Made by a program: the position numbers and the translations under genes. Positions 32,812 through 58,468 of a DNA stretch of 64,000 bases are shown piece by piece; positions within the stretch are counted from its first letter, which is position 1, and every line of letters starts with the position of its first letter. The notes beneath the pieces were generated by a model that did not search any database, was not told where the DNA came from, and worked only from the letters and a program-made list of their open reading frames with translations. Source of the DNA: Marinicella algicola (GTDB lineage Bacteria > Pseudomonadota > Gammaproteobacteria > Xanthomonadales > Marinicellaceae); contig NZ_JAQOMR010000001.1 of assembly GCF_028401385.1 (NCBI RefSeq), forward strand, positions 3,578,501 through 3,642,500, given 5' to 3'.

Positions 32812-32984
32812 TCCATATCCTCAGGCGGCCGGTTTCAAGCCGGCCGAAAAAGCCCGTCGAGGAGAAGAAAGGACACGGAGATACCCGGTCGCGGTTCTGT
32901 CCCGTCGGTGGCAACATCGTTTCGAAATGTCACCGCGACGGCAGACCGCGCCAAAACAAGAACCCCGTGTTCCAGCATGGGTGA

Positions 32985-33160
32985 CGGGATCCGGCAGGTC
33001 TCCTGGCTTCCGCGTCATCGCCATTGTTTCCGTCTTCCCGAGCATTCGCCCAGTGACATCATGGAAACGGCTCTGCGGCTACAGTTGCGGGGGCAGCCAC
33101 GGTTTTGCACCGTGTTCCTTTTCATCCGTCCTCGCGAACGGAACCTGATCCACGCGCAAT
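32985..33160 (-). promoter_or_regulatory. Cobalamin riboswitch upstream of btuB
   Basis: On the minus strand the leader contains the B12 box GCCAGGAGACCTGCCGG (about 32990-33012) and, 5' of it, the other conserved blocks: CACGGTGCAAAACCGTGG, CTGCCCCCGCAACTGTA and GATGTCACTGGGC. Order and spacing match the adenosylcobalamin riboswitch. When the ligand is bound it is expected to shut off btuBFCD. A hairpin (GGCCGGC and CCGGCC, about 32826-32845) between riboswitch and btuB may be part of the expression platform, possibly masking the ribosome site. Confidence 0.93.
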
Positions 33161-33252
33161 CTATGCGGCGGATAACGACGGTGTCAATGAAGCCAATCTT
33201 CTGATTTGTCCGAACTATTCAGCGGTATTGCTTTTCAGCCACAGATCGGATT

Positions 33253-51438: not shown

Positions 51439-54389
51439 TCAGTGCGCCTCGTCCCAGTTATGGGCAGCACGGGCATCGACCTTCAGCGGCACAGCCATGG
51501 AAACGGCAGGCATCGCCGCGTTTTCCATCACATCGACAATCAGCGCCGTCGCGCCGTCAACGGCATCATCCTCGACCTCGAAGATCAGTTCGTCATGCAC
51601 CTGGAGCAGCATTTTCACCTTCTCTGCCAGACCGGCAGCGGCGAGCTCCGGCTCGATGCGGATCATCGCGCGGCGGATCACGTCTGCGGCAGAACCCTGT
51701 ATCGGGGCATTAATGGCCGCGCGTTCATTGAAGCTTCTGACCTGATGATTTGACGATTTTATTTCCGGATAATGGATACGCCGGCCGAAGACCGTTTCGA
51801 CATAGCCATTGTCGCGGGCCTTTGCCTTAGTCTCTTCCATATAGTCGTTAATGCCGGGGAAGCGCTCGAAATAGCGCTTGATATAGTCGCTCGCCTCGGA
51901 GCGCCCGATTCCAAGCTGGTTGGCGAGACCGAAGGCGGAGATACCGTAGATGATGCCGAAATTAATGGCCTTGGCGCGGCGGCGAACCTCGCCCGGCATA
52001 CCAACCACCGGCACACCGAACATTTCCGATGCCGTCATCGCGTGGATATCGATGCCATCGGCAAAGGCCTGCTTCAACTGCGCGATATCGGCGACATGGG
52101 CAAGCACCCTGAGCTCAATCTGGCTGTAGTCGGCGGACAGCAGCTTGTGGCCTTGGTTGGCGATGAAGGCGGTGCGGATCTTGCGGCCTTCTACCGTGCG
52201 CACCGGAATATTCTGCAGGTTCGGTTCCGACGACGAGAGCCTGCCGGTCGTGGTTGCGGCCAGCGAATATGAGGTGTGGACGCGCTTGGTCTCAGGGTGG
52301 ATATAGCCCGGCAGCGCATCGGTATAGGTCGACTTCAGCTTGGTCATCTGCCGCCAATCGACGATCCGGCTTGGCAGCGGAATGCCTTGGGCGGCCAGAT
52401 CGTCCAACACCTGAACGGCGGTCGACCATTGCCCGCTCTTGGTCTTCTTGCCGCCGGGCAGCCCCATCTTGCCGAACAAAATGTCGCCAAGCTGTTTAGG
52501 CGAGCCGATGTTGAACGTCTCACCGGCAAGCTCGTAGATCTCGTCTTCAAGAGCAGCGGCCTTCTGCGCCAGTTCGCCCGAAAGCCGCGACAGGATCTGC
52601 CGGTCCACTGAAATGCCACGCTCTTCCATCCGCGAAAGAACAGGCACAAGCGGCCGCTCAAGCCGCTCATAGACGGTGGCGACATGTTCGGCGGCAAGGC
52701 GGGGTTTGAGCACCAGCCAGAGCCGCAGCGTCACATCGGCGTCTTCCGCCGCATAAGCGGTCGCCTTGGCGATATCGACAAAGTCGAACGTCACCATATT
52801 ACGGCCGGAGCCAGCGACTTCCTTGTATGGGATCGGCTGGTGACCAAGCCACCGATCGGACAGCGCATCCATGCCGTGATTGCCCATGCCGCTATCAAGC
52901 GCATAGGACAGCAGCATGGTGTCGTCGAAATTCTTCACTGTAACGCCATGGCGCAGCATCACCAGATAATCATATTTGAGGTTCTGGGCGACCTTGAGCA
53001 CAGCCTCGTCCTCAAGCAGGGCCTTGAGGGCTGCAAGTGCGCTATCAAAACCGATCTGGCCTTCCGCCAGACCACCGCCGAGAAGATCATCCTGACCGGC
53101 CTTGTGGGCAAGCGGCACATAGGCCGCCCGTACGGCCTTGCCGGCATCGGGCTCGTCTTCGTCATAAAGCGCCAGCGAAAAGCCGACCAGTTCGGCCTGC
53201 ATCGCATCAAGCGAGGTAGTTTCGGTATCGAAGGCGCAAAGCCCGCGGTCGCGCGCCACCGCAATCCAGTCCTCAAGCGTCTGAAGATCGCGGATCGTCT
53301 GGTAGGATGAACGGTCAATCGGAGCCGTGGCAAAACGGGCGGCACGGGCGGAAGCAAGCGCTGCCGGACCGCATGCCTTGGCACCGGGAGCAGCTTCCCC
53401 GTCTTCTGCAGGCGCTGCCTCGCCCGGATCAAGGTCGGGACCGTGGGCGGTCTTGCCCCATTCCACATTGACGGCAATCGGTTCGATTTCTGCAGCCTCC
53501 GCCCCTGTCGCCTCGGCGACACGGCGCGTCATGGAATTAAACTCCATCGCCTTAAGGAACGAGACAAGCTTCGGTCCGTCCTGCTCCTCCAGCACCAGCG
53601 CATCGAGCGGCAGCTCCACCGGGCAATCACGCTTCAGCGTCACAAGCTGGCGCGAAACCTGCACCAGCTCCTTGTTTGCGATGATGTTTTCGCGGCGCTT
53701 GTTTTGCTTGATGGTTTCGGCATTTGCGAGAAGATTGTCGAGATCACCGAATTCTTCCAGAAGCGTTGCCGCCGTCTTCGGACCGATGCCGGGAACGCCT
53801 GGAACATTGTCAACCGAATCACCGGTCAGCGCCTGCAGGTCGATCATCTTTTCAGGCGCCACACCCCATTTCGCGATGACCTCCGCGACGCCGATCTGGC
53901 GATCCTTCATGCCATCATACATATGGACATTCGGGCCGACGAGCTGCATCAGATCCTTGTCGGAGGAGATGATGGTGGCATCGCCACCCGCCTCGACCGC
54001 CATCCTGGCATAGGTCGCGATGATGTCATCGGCCTCATAGCCTTCGATTTCGATGCAGGGCAGGTTGAAGGCGCGCGTTGCTTCGCGGATCAGCGAGAAC
54101 TGCGGCACCAGATCCTCCGGCGGTGGCGGGCGATGGGCCTTGTATTCGGGATAGATCTCCTTGCGGAAGGTTTGCGAGGAGAAGTCGAAGATCACCGCGA
54201 GATGGGTTGGCGTCACCCCGACCGAGGTGTCGCGCGCCGATGTCAAAAGCTTCCACATCATGTTGCAGAAGCCGGATACGGCGCCAACCGGCAAACCATC
54301 AGACTTGCGCGTCAGCGGCGGCAGGGCGTGAAAGGCCCGGAAAATGAAACCGGAACCATCGATGAGGAAGAGGTGATCGTCTTTTTCAT
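51439..54389 (-). CDS. polA: DNA polymerase I, one frameshift at the start
   Basis: About 983 residues. A T5 run at 54382-54386 (plus strand) is one short; corrected, the start at 54389 gives MKKDDHLFLIDGSGFIFRAF. Three parts: 5'-3' exonuclease (ADDIIATYA, ISSDKDLMQLV), 3'-5' exonuclease around residues 410-610 (CAFDTETTSLDAM) and polymerase (SADYSQIELRVLAHVA, RRAKAINFGIIYG, LLQVHDELIFEVE). The C-terminus RAAHNWDEAH is typical. No other break occurs over 2.9 kb. Divergent from the candidate sRNA. Confidence 0.96.
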
Positions 54390-54570
54390 GCTGAAAGCCA
54401 TAGCGCGGACCGAAAAAAGGTCCATCGCAAAGCCAGATTTCAACGCTTTCGCCAAACCTTCTGCATAGCCGGTTGAAAGAAAAACGCATGAATTTAATCA
54501 AATTACCAATTTGTAACGAAATACGTCGTCGTTTCCCTTGAATCGACACATTTGGAAGTACAAATACATC

Positions 54571-54716
54571 TCAACGGCGCACGTTAGCGCCGATGCCTGA
54601 TGGAGGCTCGTCCCCCGCCTCGTCAGACAAAAGGACAAAGGCTCCATCCCCTCTCCGGCCTTTGTCCCAAAAAGCAGCCGCCATGGCCTCCCCCTCCAGG
54701 CCATGGCGGCTTTTTA
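54571..54716 (+). ncRNA. Candidate trans-acting small RNA with three C-rich loops
   Basis: A likely -35 (TTGAAT, 54538) and a weak -10 near 54560 precede the segment. Four hairpins follow: a small GGCGC/GCGCC; 54597-54626 (loop with CCCCC); 54633-54667, a perfect 10-bp stem GGACAAAGGC/GCCTTTGTCC (loop CCCCTCTCC); and the terminator 54677-54710, a perfect 13-bp stem (loop CCCCCTCC) with a T run. Repeated C/U-rich loops that can pair with Shine-Dalgarno sequences characterise several rhizobial sRNA families. From memory, the alpha-r7 family (Smr7C) also lies beside polA, so this may be its homologue. Transcription is inferred. Confidence 0.7.
54677..54716 (+). terminator. Rho-independent terminator of the candidate sRNA
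   Basis: GCCGCCATGGCCT and AGGCCATGGCGGC form a perfect 13-bp stem with an 8-base loop and TTTTTATT after it. It stands between two divergent genes (polA and the dipeptidase), where no protein gene needs a terminator, which is why a transcript starting upstream of it is proposed. Confidence 0.9.
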
Positions 54717-54832: not shown

Positions 54833-56221
54833 ATGACTGAACTTGAAACGCTGCTGAAACGTGCTGACGACAACCTGCCTTCCAGCCTCGACAAGCTGTT
54901 CGCACTCCTGCGTATTCCCTCGATTTCGACCGATCCGGCCTACAGGGAAAAATGTGCCGACGCCGCCGACTGGCTGGTGGGTGAGTTGAAAACGCTGGGC
55001 TTTTCCGCCACCGCCTATGAGACCAAAGGCCATCCTATGGTAGTCGGCACATCTGAAAATGCGCCGGAAGGCGCCCCGCATGTTCTGTTCTACGGCCATT
55101 ATGACGTTCAGCCCGTCGACCCTCTGGAGCTTTGGGAGAGCGATCCTTTCGCGCCGGAAATCAAGGACGTCGGCAACGGCCGCAAGATCATTACCGGCCG
55201 CGGCACCAGCGATGACAAGGGCCAGTTGATGACCTTCCTGCAGGCCTGCCGTGCCTATCGGGAAGAAAACGCCGAACTGCCGGTCAAGATCACCGTGATG
55301 TTCGAAGGCGAGGAAGAATCAGGCTCGCCCTCGCTTCCCGCCTTCATCGAAGAACACGGCGACCTGATCAAGGCCGATTTCGCGCTCGTCTGCGATACCG
55401 GCATGTGGGATCGCGAGACGCCGGCGATTGCCGCCACGTTGCGCGGCCTTGTCGGGGACGAGGTGGTGATCACCGCCGCCGACCGCGATCTTCATTCCGG
55501 CTTCTTCGGTGGTGCAGCCGCAAACCCGATCCATATCCTCGCCGACATCCTCGCAGGTCTTCATGACGAGACCGGCCGCGTGACGTTGCCGGGCTTTTAT
55601 AACGGTGTCGAAGAGACGCCGGAAGACGTCAAGAAGAGTTGGGAACAGCTTGGCGAAACCGATCAGCGTTTTCTCGGCGAGATCGGGCTTTCCGAGCCTG
55701 CCGGCGAGAAGGGTCGCTCGGTGCTGGAGCTGACGTGGACGCGTCCGACGGCGGAGGTGAACGGCATTACCGGCGGTTACACCGGCGAAGGCTTCAAGAC
55801 CGTGATTGCGGCCAGGGCTTCGGCAAAGGTGTCCTTCCGCCTCGTCGGCACTCAGGATCCGGCGAAAATCCGTGAAAGCTTCCACAATTACGTCAGTTCG
55901 AAAATTCCGGAAGACTGCAGCGTCGAATTTCATCCCCATGGCGGTTCGCCGGCCATCCAACTGGACTACAACGCGCCGTTTTTGAAGAAGGCGCAGGCAG
56001 CCCTTTCCGAGGAATGGCCGAAACCCGCCGTTGTCATCGGCATGGGCGGCTCGATCCCGATTGTCGGCGATTTCCAGAAGAAACTCGGCATGGATTCGCT
56101 GCTCGTCGGCTTCGGTCTCAACGATGACCGTATCCACTCGCCGAACGAGAAATACGAGCTGACCTCTTTCCACAAGGGCATCCGCTCCTGGATCCGCATT
56201 CTCGACGCACTTGCCAAATAA
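54833..56221 (+). CDS. M20 family dipeptidase
   Basis: 462 residues, intact. Zinc peptidase fold: HVLFYGHYDVQPVDPLELW with the first His ligand and following Asp, RGTSDDKGQLMTFL with the bridging Asp, and the general base Glu in MFEGEEESGSPSLP; FALVCDTGMW and a C-terminal SPNEKYELTSFHKGI with His. A dimerisation/lid domain occupies about residues 200-350. It cleaves dipeptides, possibly including beta-Ala or D-amino-acid forms. No signal peptide, so cytoplasmic. Confidence 0.88.
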   Translation: MTELETLLKRADDNLPSSLDKLFALLRIPSISTDPAYREKCADAADWLVGELKTLGFSATAYETKGHPMVVGTSENAPEGAPHVLFYGHYDVQPVDPLELWESDPFAPEIKDVGNGRKIITGRGTSDDKGQLMTFLQACRAYREENAELPVKITVMFEGEEESGSPSLPAFIEEHGDLIKADFALVCDTGMWDRETPAIAATLRGLVGDEVVITAADRDLHSGFFGGAAANPIHILADILAGLHDETGRVTLPGFYNGVEETPEDVKKSWEQLGETDQRFLGEIGLSEPAGEKGRSVLELTWTRPTAEVNGITGGYTGEGFKTVIAARASAKVSFRLVGTQDPAKIRESFHNYVSSKIPEDCSVEFHPHGGSPAIQLDYNAPFLKKAQAALSEEWPKPAVVIGMGGSIPIVGDFQKKLGMDSLLVGFGLNDDRIHSPNEKYELTSFHKGIRSWIRILDALAK

Positions 56222-56366
56222 TGCGCTCAGGGCCGGTGTTCAGCCTGCGTTAATGCTGATTTTGCTCTTTGGCGCAGCGACAGCGCACCGGCCCTCGCCT
56301 TAACAGACCCTTAACGGCAAGCGGCTAATCTGAATTGCGAACACGGAAGGTGAGCAGCTCCACCGC

Positions 56367-58468
56367 ATGGCCGGAAAGAAAAAAGCGCAACAGGACAGAT
56401 CCGTCCCTTCGCGGCCCCTCCGCCGCGAAGCGCAAAACGCCTGCGAAGCGGAAGTCGCGCGGCAACACAAGGCGCGCCCGCTCCTCCGGACGCGGCTTTT
56501 TGATGCGGTCCTTCCGCTTTGTCGTCTATTGGGGTTTTGTCGCCGCCATATGGGGCGCTGTCGTCGTCGCCGGCATTGTCATCTATTACGGTGCCAAACT
56601 GCCCCCGTCGATGAATGGGCCGTGCCGAACCGTGCGCCCAACGTCAAGATTGTCGCCATCGACGGTTCGCTGATCGCCAACCGCGGCGCGACCGGCGGAG
56701 AAGCGCTTTCGATCGATGAAATGTCGCCCTTCATCCCAATGGCGGTCGTCGCCATCGAGGACCGGCGTTTTTATTCTCACTTCGGGGTTGATCCGATCGG
56801 CATCACCCGTGCGATGATGACCAATATCACCCGTGGCAGCATGGTGCAGGGCGGTTCAACGCTGACCCAGCAGCTGGCCAAGAATGTGCTACTCTCCCAC
56901 GCCCGAACTCTGGAGCGCAAGGTCCAGGAAGCGCTGATGGCGCTATGGCTGGAGCGTAAATACTCCAAGGACCAGATCCTTGCGATGTATCTGAACCGCG
57001 TTTACTTCGGCTCCGGCGCCTATGGGGTGGAAGCCGCATCCCGGCGTTATTTCAACAAATCCGCCCGTGACGTGACGCTCGGCGAAGCGGCCCTCCTGGC
57101 CGGCCTGCTGAAGGCGCCGTCACGGCTTTCGCCCGCCCGCGACCCGGAAGCCGCGGAAGAACGCGCGCAAGTGGTGCTTGCCGCCATGCACGATCAGAAC
57201 ATGATCGATGACAGCGACATGGCGACCGCGATGGCGCGTGAACCAACGCGCGCGCCGAGCTACTGGTCGGGTGCCGAACATTATGTCGCCGACATGGTCA
57301 TGGGCCGCCTGGGTCCGATTGTCGGCAAAATCACCACCGACATCGTCGTTCACACCACCATCGACCCCGGCCTTGAGCGCGATGCCGAGGACAGCCTGCA
57401 GGATGTGCTCGCTGCCAATGGCGAGAAGGATCGTGTCGAACAGGGCGCGCTGGTGGCCGTGGATGCAACGGGCGCAGTGCGGGCGCTTGTCGGTGGACGG
57501 GAATATTCAAAAGCCAGTTCAACCGCGCTGTCACCGCCAAACGCCAGCCGGGATCGGCTTTCAAGCCATTCGTTTATGCGGCCGCACTGGAAATCGGCGA
57601 CCGGCCGAGCTCGGTCCGCAATGATGCGCCGATTACCATCGATAACTGGACGCCGGAAAACTACGAAAAGACCTATTCCGGGCCGATGACACTGACAACG
57701 GCGCTGGCCCATTCGGTCAATACGATCGCCGCGCAACTGGTGATGGAGGCAAGCCCCGGTCAGGTCGTCAGCCTCGCCCACCGGCTCGGCATCACCTCGG
57801 ATATCACCGCCAATGCCTCGCTCGCACTGGGTACGTCGGAAGTCTCTCTCATCGAACTGACCGGCGCCTACACCGCCTTCATGAATGGCGGCTTCAAGGC
57901 GGCGCCCTATGTCATCGAGCGTGTCGAGTCGACCGGCGGACAGACGCTCTATCAGGCAGACCATGCTGGCCAGCCCCGTGTGCTCTCGCCGCAGATCGCC
58001 GCCAATATGAACGGCATGCTGATGCGGGTGGTGACCGAAGGCACGGGCAGTGCGGCGCAAATCCCCGGCTGGCAGGTGGCTGGCAAAACCGGCACGACGC
58101 AATCCTCACGCGATGCGCTATTTGTCGGCTTTACCGCCAACCTGACCACCGGCGTATGGGTCGGCAATGACGACAATTCGCCGATGCGCAATGTCACCGG
58201 CGGCAAGTTACCGGCGAAGATCTGGCACGATTTCATGGCCGAGGCCCATCATGGCCTCAAGCCGCAACCGCTCTACGGCGGCGGTCGGCTGATAGACCCG
58301 AAGCCGCGAGGCGCAACGGCGCCCGATGATGGCAGCCCGAAGACGCTGGTCGAACTGCTCGGGCGACTCGGCGAAGACGGAAACGCCGCCCCGCCCGCCG
58401 ATGTCGGCGAGGCCCAGCAGGAAGAGCGCAAGCGCCGCACAATCATGCAAATTCTCGGCGGCGGATAG
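56367..58468 (+). CDS. Class A penicillin-binding protein (PBP1-type), about three frameshifts
   Basis: About 701 residues. The basic N-terminal tail (MAGKKKAQQ) changes frame near the A6 run at 56379-56384, then RSFRFVVYWGFVAAIWGAVV is the membrane anchor. A C5 run at 56602-56606 is one short (restores LPPVDEWAVPNRAPN). The glycosyltransferase domain shows VAIEDRRFYSHFGVD and GGSTLTQQLAKN. The A4 run at 57509-57512 is one short and restores SKSQFNRAV with the catalytic GSAFKPF. The last motif is KTGTTQSSRDALFVG. It polymerises and cross-links peptidoglycan. Confidence 0.88.

Follow-up and report, generated by a model that had tools for sequence, protein, structure and literature searches.

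An ar7 (Smr7C) small RNA beside polA in a Martelella-like genome, with a palindrome phased to a putative heat-shock-type promoter

The small RNA ar7 has been known since 2007. Its S. meliloti form, Smr7C, was predicted in the interval that separates polA from SMc02851, and northern blots detected it from one strand as two species of <200 nt that were about 13-fold up in nodules (PMC2780559). The same RNA has been described as sra03, for which three hairpins were given, one 15-nt loop was strictly conserved, no promoter could be recognized and a possible pairing with the 5'UTR of the SMc03977-zapA operon was proposed in 2007 (PMC2245857), and as SmelC023, which is 147 nt long (PMC2873474) and is listed with RpoD and RpoH1/2 (PMC7143759). 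A survey of 29 relatives placed all but one beside the gene for DNA polymerase I and found the loops of the two middle hairpins highly conserved, with stems that exchange base pairs (PMC3927594). SmrC7 gave no Hfq co-immunoprecipitation signal, which was taken as absent or weak binding (PMC2848018). The family, structure and expression of ar7 are thus already known; the available parts of this literature give neither a demonstrated target nor any regulator other than the predicted sigma-factor promoters, and our search of the available papers for the Rfam accession RF02342 found none naming it. Smr7C is stated as not found in Mesorhizobium huakuii 7653R (PMC5596092), against which our collection of related loci includes one from M. 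huakuii (L101). In the ar14 family, CCUCCUCCC stands in every loop, and the loop motifs of its member NfeR1 silence ntrB by pairing, a process called Hfq-independent (PMC10746234).

Here we analyzed a 64-kb stretch of DNA, the window, in which a first-pass annotation had noticed C-rich hairpins in the gap that separates polA from a dipeptidase gene. In view of the polA neighborhood, which resembles that of alpha-r7 (Smr7C), it had suggested either a divergent member of that family or a separate one. The guess at ar7 was correct: covariance models matched RF02342 over its full length (model positions 1-145 of 145) with 93.8 bits against a threshold of 60 and an E-value of 7e-17. At curated thresholds the whole window contains two Rfam matches, this one and a cobalamin riboswitch at 32976-33163 on the minus strand (126.6 bits). 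With permissive filters, three neighboring families fell short, namely ar14 (RF02344, 46.4 bits, threshold 58.8), sX13 (RF02232, 27.1 bits, threshold 50) and CcsR1 (RF02791, 16.4 bits, threshold 65.3). The loops also differ from those of ar14, reading UCGUCCCCC, UCCAUCCCCUCUCCG and CCCCCUCC here, and they agree with the Rfam ar7 consensus in the C-rich middle loops. The source genome carries a single ar7 copy and three of ar14 (L128, L129 and L130 on contig C1, at 88.3-109.7 bits and so above the curated threshold). In ten relatives, which were reached through their ar7 loci and were therefore certain to carry the RNA, ar7 scored 76.8-115.8 bits with one copy each. Because 93.8 bits falls within this range, the label "divergent" is unneeded, and the alternative of a separate family is unsupported. 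With its one copy, the element belongs to the described ar7 (Smr7C/sra03/SmelC023) family as a typical member.

Features of the ar7 locus, in coordinates of the window
Feature	Position	Strand	Basis
polA, divergent neighbor	51439..54441	-	predicted start; open frame reaches 54549
TTAC-CAATTT-GTAA palindrome, putative operator	54503..54516	.	conserved at ar7 loci
CTTGAA, -35 box of RpoH type (putative sigma factor)	54537..54542	+	conserved; matches published RpoH1 -35
TACAAAT, weak -10 box	54559..54565	+	3/7 match to RpoH1 CCTATAT
ar7 small RNA	54572..54715	+	RF02342, 93.8 bits, full model; 5' end predicted from Rfam match and promoter
5' hairpin CGGCGC-ACGTTA-GCGCCG, 6 bp	54575..54592	+	fold prediction; absent from first-pass annotation
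Hairpin 1, bulged, loop TCGTCCCCC	54597..54626	+	fold and covariation
Hairpin 2, loop TCCATCCCCTCTCCG (15 nt)	54633..54667	+	fold and covariation
Hairpin 3, loop CCCCCTCC, with T-run; intrinsic terminator	54677..54715	+	fold, terminator scan, covariation
M20 family dipeptidase, downstream neighbor	54833..56221	+	next gene on the same strand

The predicted fold reproduced the three hairpins with C-rich loops and the 13-bp terminator at the places first noted. Its minimum free energy is -73.1 kcal/mol, compared to a mean of -43.97 (sd 3.86) for 200 dinucleotide shuffles, none of which was as good (z = -7.55). The stem of hairpin 1 consists of 6+4 pairs, including one G-U, and one bulged base; that of hairpin 2 is a perfect 10 bp (54633-54642 with 54658-54667); and that of the terminator has 13 perfect pairs (54677-54689 with 54698-54710) followed by TTTTT. 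The terminator scan counted 14 pairs in hairpin 3, with the outer A-T included, and scored it as a terminator on both strands.

To compare this structure across related loci, we collected relatives with a pattern that fixed parts of loops 1 and 2, obtaining at least 118 stretches. Two were judged to be chance matches and our own locus was added, leaving 117 ar7 loci among the matches listed. Conservation of loops 1 and 2 is not readable from this set because the search pattern fixed parts of them; loop 3 and those stems that the pattern left free remain assessable. In 53 thinned, diverse sequences from the listed loci, 97.3% of stem cells were paired and 23 of 30 stem pairs had changed on both sides. 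Cells with two-sided changes numbered 264, compared to 82.7 on average after shuffling (sd 13.4), and none of 500 shuffles was as high on any of five measures. Sliding the pairing partners left only 25.8-46.9% paired, a control over which the true structure is favored since it was derived from the same alignment. The small RNA that had been proposed is borne out, with covarying stems. It shows the features of ar7: a position beside polA and three main hairpins, of which the third forms the terminator, whose stems are maintained through compensatory base changes. The element is a real RNA, and its transcript is predicted from sequence. One of the collected loci, from a bin named Pseudolabrys (L061), resembles those of Mesorhizobium and its kin and perhaps lies on a mis-binned contig.

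All three loops had been described as resembling an anti-Shine-Dalgarno sequence, and this held for one of them. The canonical core CCUCC is found in loop 3 only; loop 2 reads CCCCUCUCC and loop 1 UCCCCC, both non-canonical, and loop 1 is not anti-Shine-Dalgarno-like. Among the 117 listed loci, less any with <80 bases downstream, the loop-3 stretch contained CCTCC in 97 and CCCC in 102; CCTCC is absent in, for example, L047 and L112.

We then searched for targets of the loops. For the SMc03977-zapA operon, a search by sequence motif alone for loop complements (loop 2 with G-U pairs allowed, and loop 1), counting matches at any position in the locus, returned three in 15 zapA loci, none of them in the source genome. 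The loop-2 complement before a start codon, GGAGAGGGG-N1-11-ATG, gave 80 rows in 15 genomes compared to 51 for a reversed control, with a single genome contributing 33 of them; four of the 80 were ar7 itself read backwards, and the source genome had no exact complement before an ATG by this search. The only following frames of at least 40 aa that recurred between genomes were, as judged from their sequences, a urtA-like one (3 genomes) and a cbtB-like one (2 Agrobacterium). Of 24 genomes, 13 have AGAGGGG ahead of the urtA start, and the three Martelella genomes have GAGGGG there, compared to 0 and 3, respectively, of 436 background starts. By pairing energy with loop 2, however, 7-171 of the 436 background starts paired at least as well as urtA in the 16 genomes tested, with 102 doing so in the source genome. 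Promising by motif and undistinguished by pairing energy, urtA is therefore not supported as a target, and none of the targets tried was convincing. In the urtA-like gene of the source genome (L308), the ATG after GAGGGG is out of frame with the rest, unlike in its Martelella relatives, reflecting either a real change or an assembly error. An exact complement of loop 1, GGCGGGGGACG, occurs at one site in the source genome besides ar7 (C1:1050677-1050687; L200 and L283).

Given one canonical anti-Shine-Dalgarno loop, a zapA target not recovered and an undistinguished urtA, the earlier description of the RNA as a repressor with many targets is not established. These same results, together with the form of loop 1, would fit an ar7 RNA whose C-rich loops mainly serve to hold a protein, either an RNA-binding protein or a nuclease, or one that stabilizes mRNAs elsewhere, instead of blocking ribosome-binding sites. 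The C-rich loop of Agrobacterium PmaR sets a precedent, as it mostly activates, and does so away from the ribosome-binding site (PMC6234868). Against this, pairing at ntrB is how the similar ar14 RNA NfeR1 brings about silencing (PMC10746234), and the missing Hfq signal for SmrC7 (PMC2848018) counts against Hfq, and no other protein, as the one held. We regard protein holding or mRNA stabilization as unlikely, if a serious contender, and by analogy ar7 probably blocks ribosome-binding sites as NfeR1 does.

Upstream of the RNA lies a conserved promoter. Of the 117 listed loci, 111 have CTTGAA at 66-82 nt ahead of loop 1, and it was followed by CANWT in 105 of these 111, at 18 bases past the box in 87. 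Conservation extends to bases around the box, with a CC directly before CTTGAA and, within the spacer, positions occupied by C and by T. The RpoH1 consensus of S. meliloti is CTTGAA-N16-CCTATAT (PMC8844928), with the spacer also given as N15-16 (PMC4843759); measured against this S. meliloti consensus, our promoter matches at 6/6 positions of the -35 box and 3/7 of the -10 heptamer. These features suggest an ar7 promoter of heat-shock (RpoH) type, for which we only infer the sigma factor because the -35 box fits fully and the -10 box poorly.

The promoter bears on whether there is a separate RNA at all. With a dipeptidase gene downstream on the same strand, and a last hairpin that makes a good terminator both ways, the hairpins could instead belong to a longer transcript as its terminator or leader, for instance that of the dipeptidase. 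Three things count against this: the match spans the whole model of a curated small RNA family, a conserved promoter lies directly upstream, and the S. meliloti homolog was seen as an RNA of <200 nt from one strand (PMC2780559), and we consider it highly improbable.

Further upstream is a palindrome, TTAC-N6-GTAA, that is the only one of its kind in the window, where 0.07 would be expected. It was present in 111 of 114 listed ar7 loci with CTTGAA or CTTGAT, the three misses all being Chelativorans, and in 108 of the 111 listed loci with CTTGAA itself. For these 108 loci, the spacing to CTTGAA was 10 bp in 71, 11 bp in 31, 20 bp in five and 21 bp in one. The six with long spacing are from three Martelella and three isolates named only Rhizobiales bacterium, and the long spacing of the latter three is probably one event, because much of the inserted sequence is common to them. 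A shift by about ten bases is one that a protein confined to one face of the helix would tolerate, and the palindrome may thus be the phased activator site of a heat-shock-type promoter.

The palindrome sits between two start regions and polA is a constant neighbor, with a divergent polA motif at 105 of the 117 listed loci, so the palindrome and the conserved gap could serve polA control and not the small RNA. Set against this is how the two distances behave: at 102 of the listed loci, the distance between palindrome and polA motif varies over 96-713 nt, compared to 10, 11, 20 or 21 bp between palindrome and CTTGAA/CTTGAT. Control of polA therefore seems quite unlikely to us, and we continue with the palindrome as a candidate site for an activator of ar7.

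How specific is this site to ar7? Pooling 127 records (968 kb, with our own locus counted twice) gave 113 such palindromes, and hence hardly any outside ar7. A strict form, GTTAC-N5-TGTAAT, occurred once per genome, always at ar7, in four of seven genomes and was absent in three, the source genome included. The looser TTACNNANNTGTAA has its single occurrence in the source genome at ar7; across 14 genomes it was not enriched, with 59 rows compared to 62 for a reversed control. These 59 rows represent 52 places, 12 of them ar7. We compared 50 of the 52, of which 11 were ar7 and five lay beside a DUF2076 gene, with the palindrome 76-95 nt before the gene start in five genomes (L320, L352, L361, L364 and L365); PF09849 (DUF2076) was confirmed in the four neighbor proteins tested. 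At three of the five DUF2076 places, a box that differs from CTTGAA in no more than one position follows at 10-11 bp, and such a box at the spacings tried was found at 2 of the remaining 34. The DUF2076 link, found after the fact, is a lead.

As for the protein that would bind the palindrome, clustering the neighbors of the TTACNNANNTGTAA places yielded no recurring regulator gene nameable as the binder; three of the places have beside them a frame that is TetR-like as judged from its sequence. The palindrome is not found in the available parts of the ar7 and RpoH literature, a search that did not cover del Val et al. 2012 (RNA Biology), which reportedly contains promoter alignments for the ar7 family, and we do not claim it as new to print. 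Judged by the published motifs, the binder is not ChvI (PMC9731502). Enhancers upstream of many RpoH boxes in S. meliloti are described as still uncharacterized (PMC8844928). Tentatively, and as a possibility that we would put somewhat below even, ar7 may be the main, perhaps nearly only, strong target of a TTAC-N6-GTAA activator that works with RpoH-type polymerase from a site on one helix face, separated by 10-11 or 20-21 bp from that promoter's -35 box, with a DUF2076 gene maybe a second target in some genomes. If so, the palindrome would be one of these uncharacterized rhizobial enhancers, and an RNA directed against ribosome sites would be tied to heat or envelope stress. The phased palindrome, with a strict form found once per genome in four of seven, offers a direct handle on the protein controlling ar7.

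The neighboring genes indicate the kinship of the host. The window's polA is 89% identical to its counterparts in Martelella lutilitoris (L077) and M. limonii (L054), and the dipeptidase is 92-95% identical to those of the same two species, with the next best at about 77%; the host genome is Martelella-like by these comparisons. Among the ar7 loci, the best 40 rows for the polymerase part of polA were 68-89% identical, all named Rhizobiales except our own copy. The same part compared to 40 other genomes of a set labeled as relatives gave 46-52% identity in 38 and was missing in two. Genomes labeled with the same family or order are thus a mismatch for a Martelella-like host, whose close kin apparently lie outside the set. 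With stricter filters, RF02342 was found only in the source genome, in 1 of 61 genomes of the relatives set, 1 of 398 of an order set and 1 of 369 of a class set. These tallies are no evidence on the range of ar7, because the relatives set contained no close kin (polA at 46-52%), a check that covered the relatives set. Beyond the dipeptidase, a penicillin-binding-protein-like gene appears in pieces, in overlapping frames at 56335-58468 on the plus strand, with a transglycosylase domain in the frame from 56367.

Taken together, we favor, as moderately probable, the following account. The ar7 (Smr7C) RNA of this Martelella-like bacterium would be a trans-acting RNA of about 145 nt with a promoter and a terminator of its own, both located in the space that separates the divergent polA from the dipeptidase gene. 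A putative activator would bind the palindrome one or two helical turns upstream of the RpoH-type -35 box, which a heat-shock-type sigma factor would presumably read. The C-rich loops, presented by rigid stems, would most likely base-pair to ribosome-binding regions rich in purines and so prevent translation; as for the cousin NfeR1, Hfq would probably not be needed. What this analysis adds to earlier knowledge is assignment to the family by score, the covariation, the exclusion of neighboring families and the phased upstream site; the RNA of the source genome itself extends a known family by one genus.

Compared with known systems, the element shares with ar7/Smr7C/sra03/SmelC023 the full-length model match, three hairpins with C-rich loops, the terminator, the place beside polA and the single copy. 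The spacing from palindrome to box is one helical turn longer here than at most ar7 loci. In the Rhizobiaceae members surveyed in PMC3927594, a MarR-type gene is reported next downstream of ar7, whereas the dipeptidase is next at our locus. Many Rhizobium and Agrobacterium loci in our collection (L012, L014, L083, L103 and similar) likewise have a MarR-like frame between ar7 and the dipeptidase; none was seen there in the window. In nothing that defines the family does the source locus differ. With ar14/NfeR1 it has in common three hairpins with C-rich loops, a terminator and a likely shared mode of action, but it is set apart by its sub-threshold ar14 score, by loops without CCUCCUCCC and by the three separate ar14 copies in the source genome. 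CcsR1 and sX13 also have C-rich hairpin loops, with scores here under their thresholds, and CcsR RNAs likewise have an RpoH-type promoter (PMC10253847).
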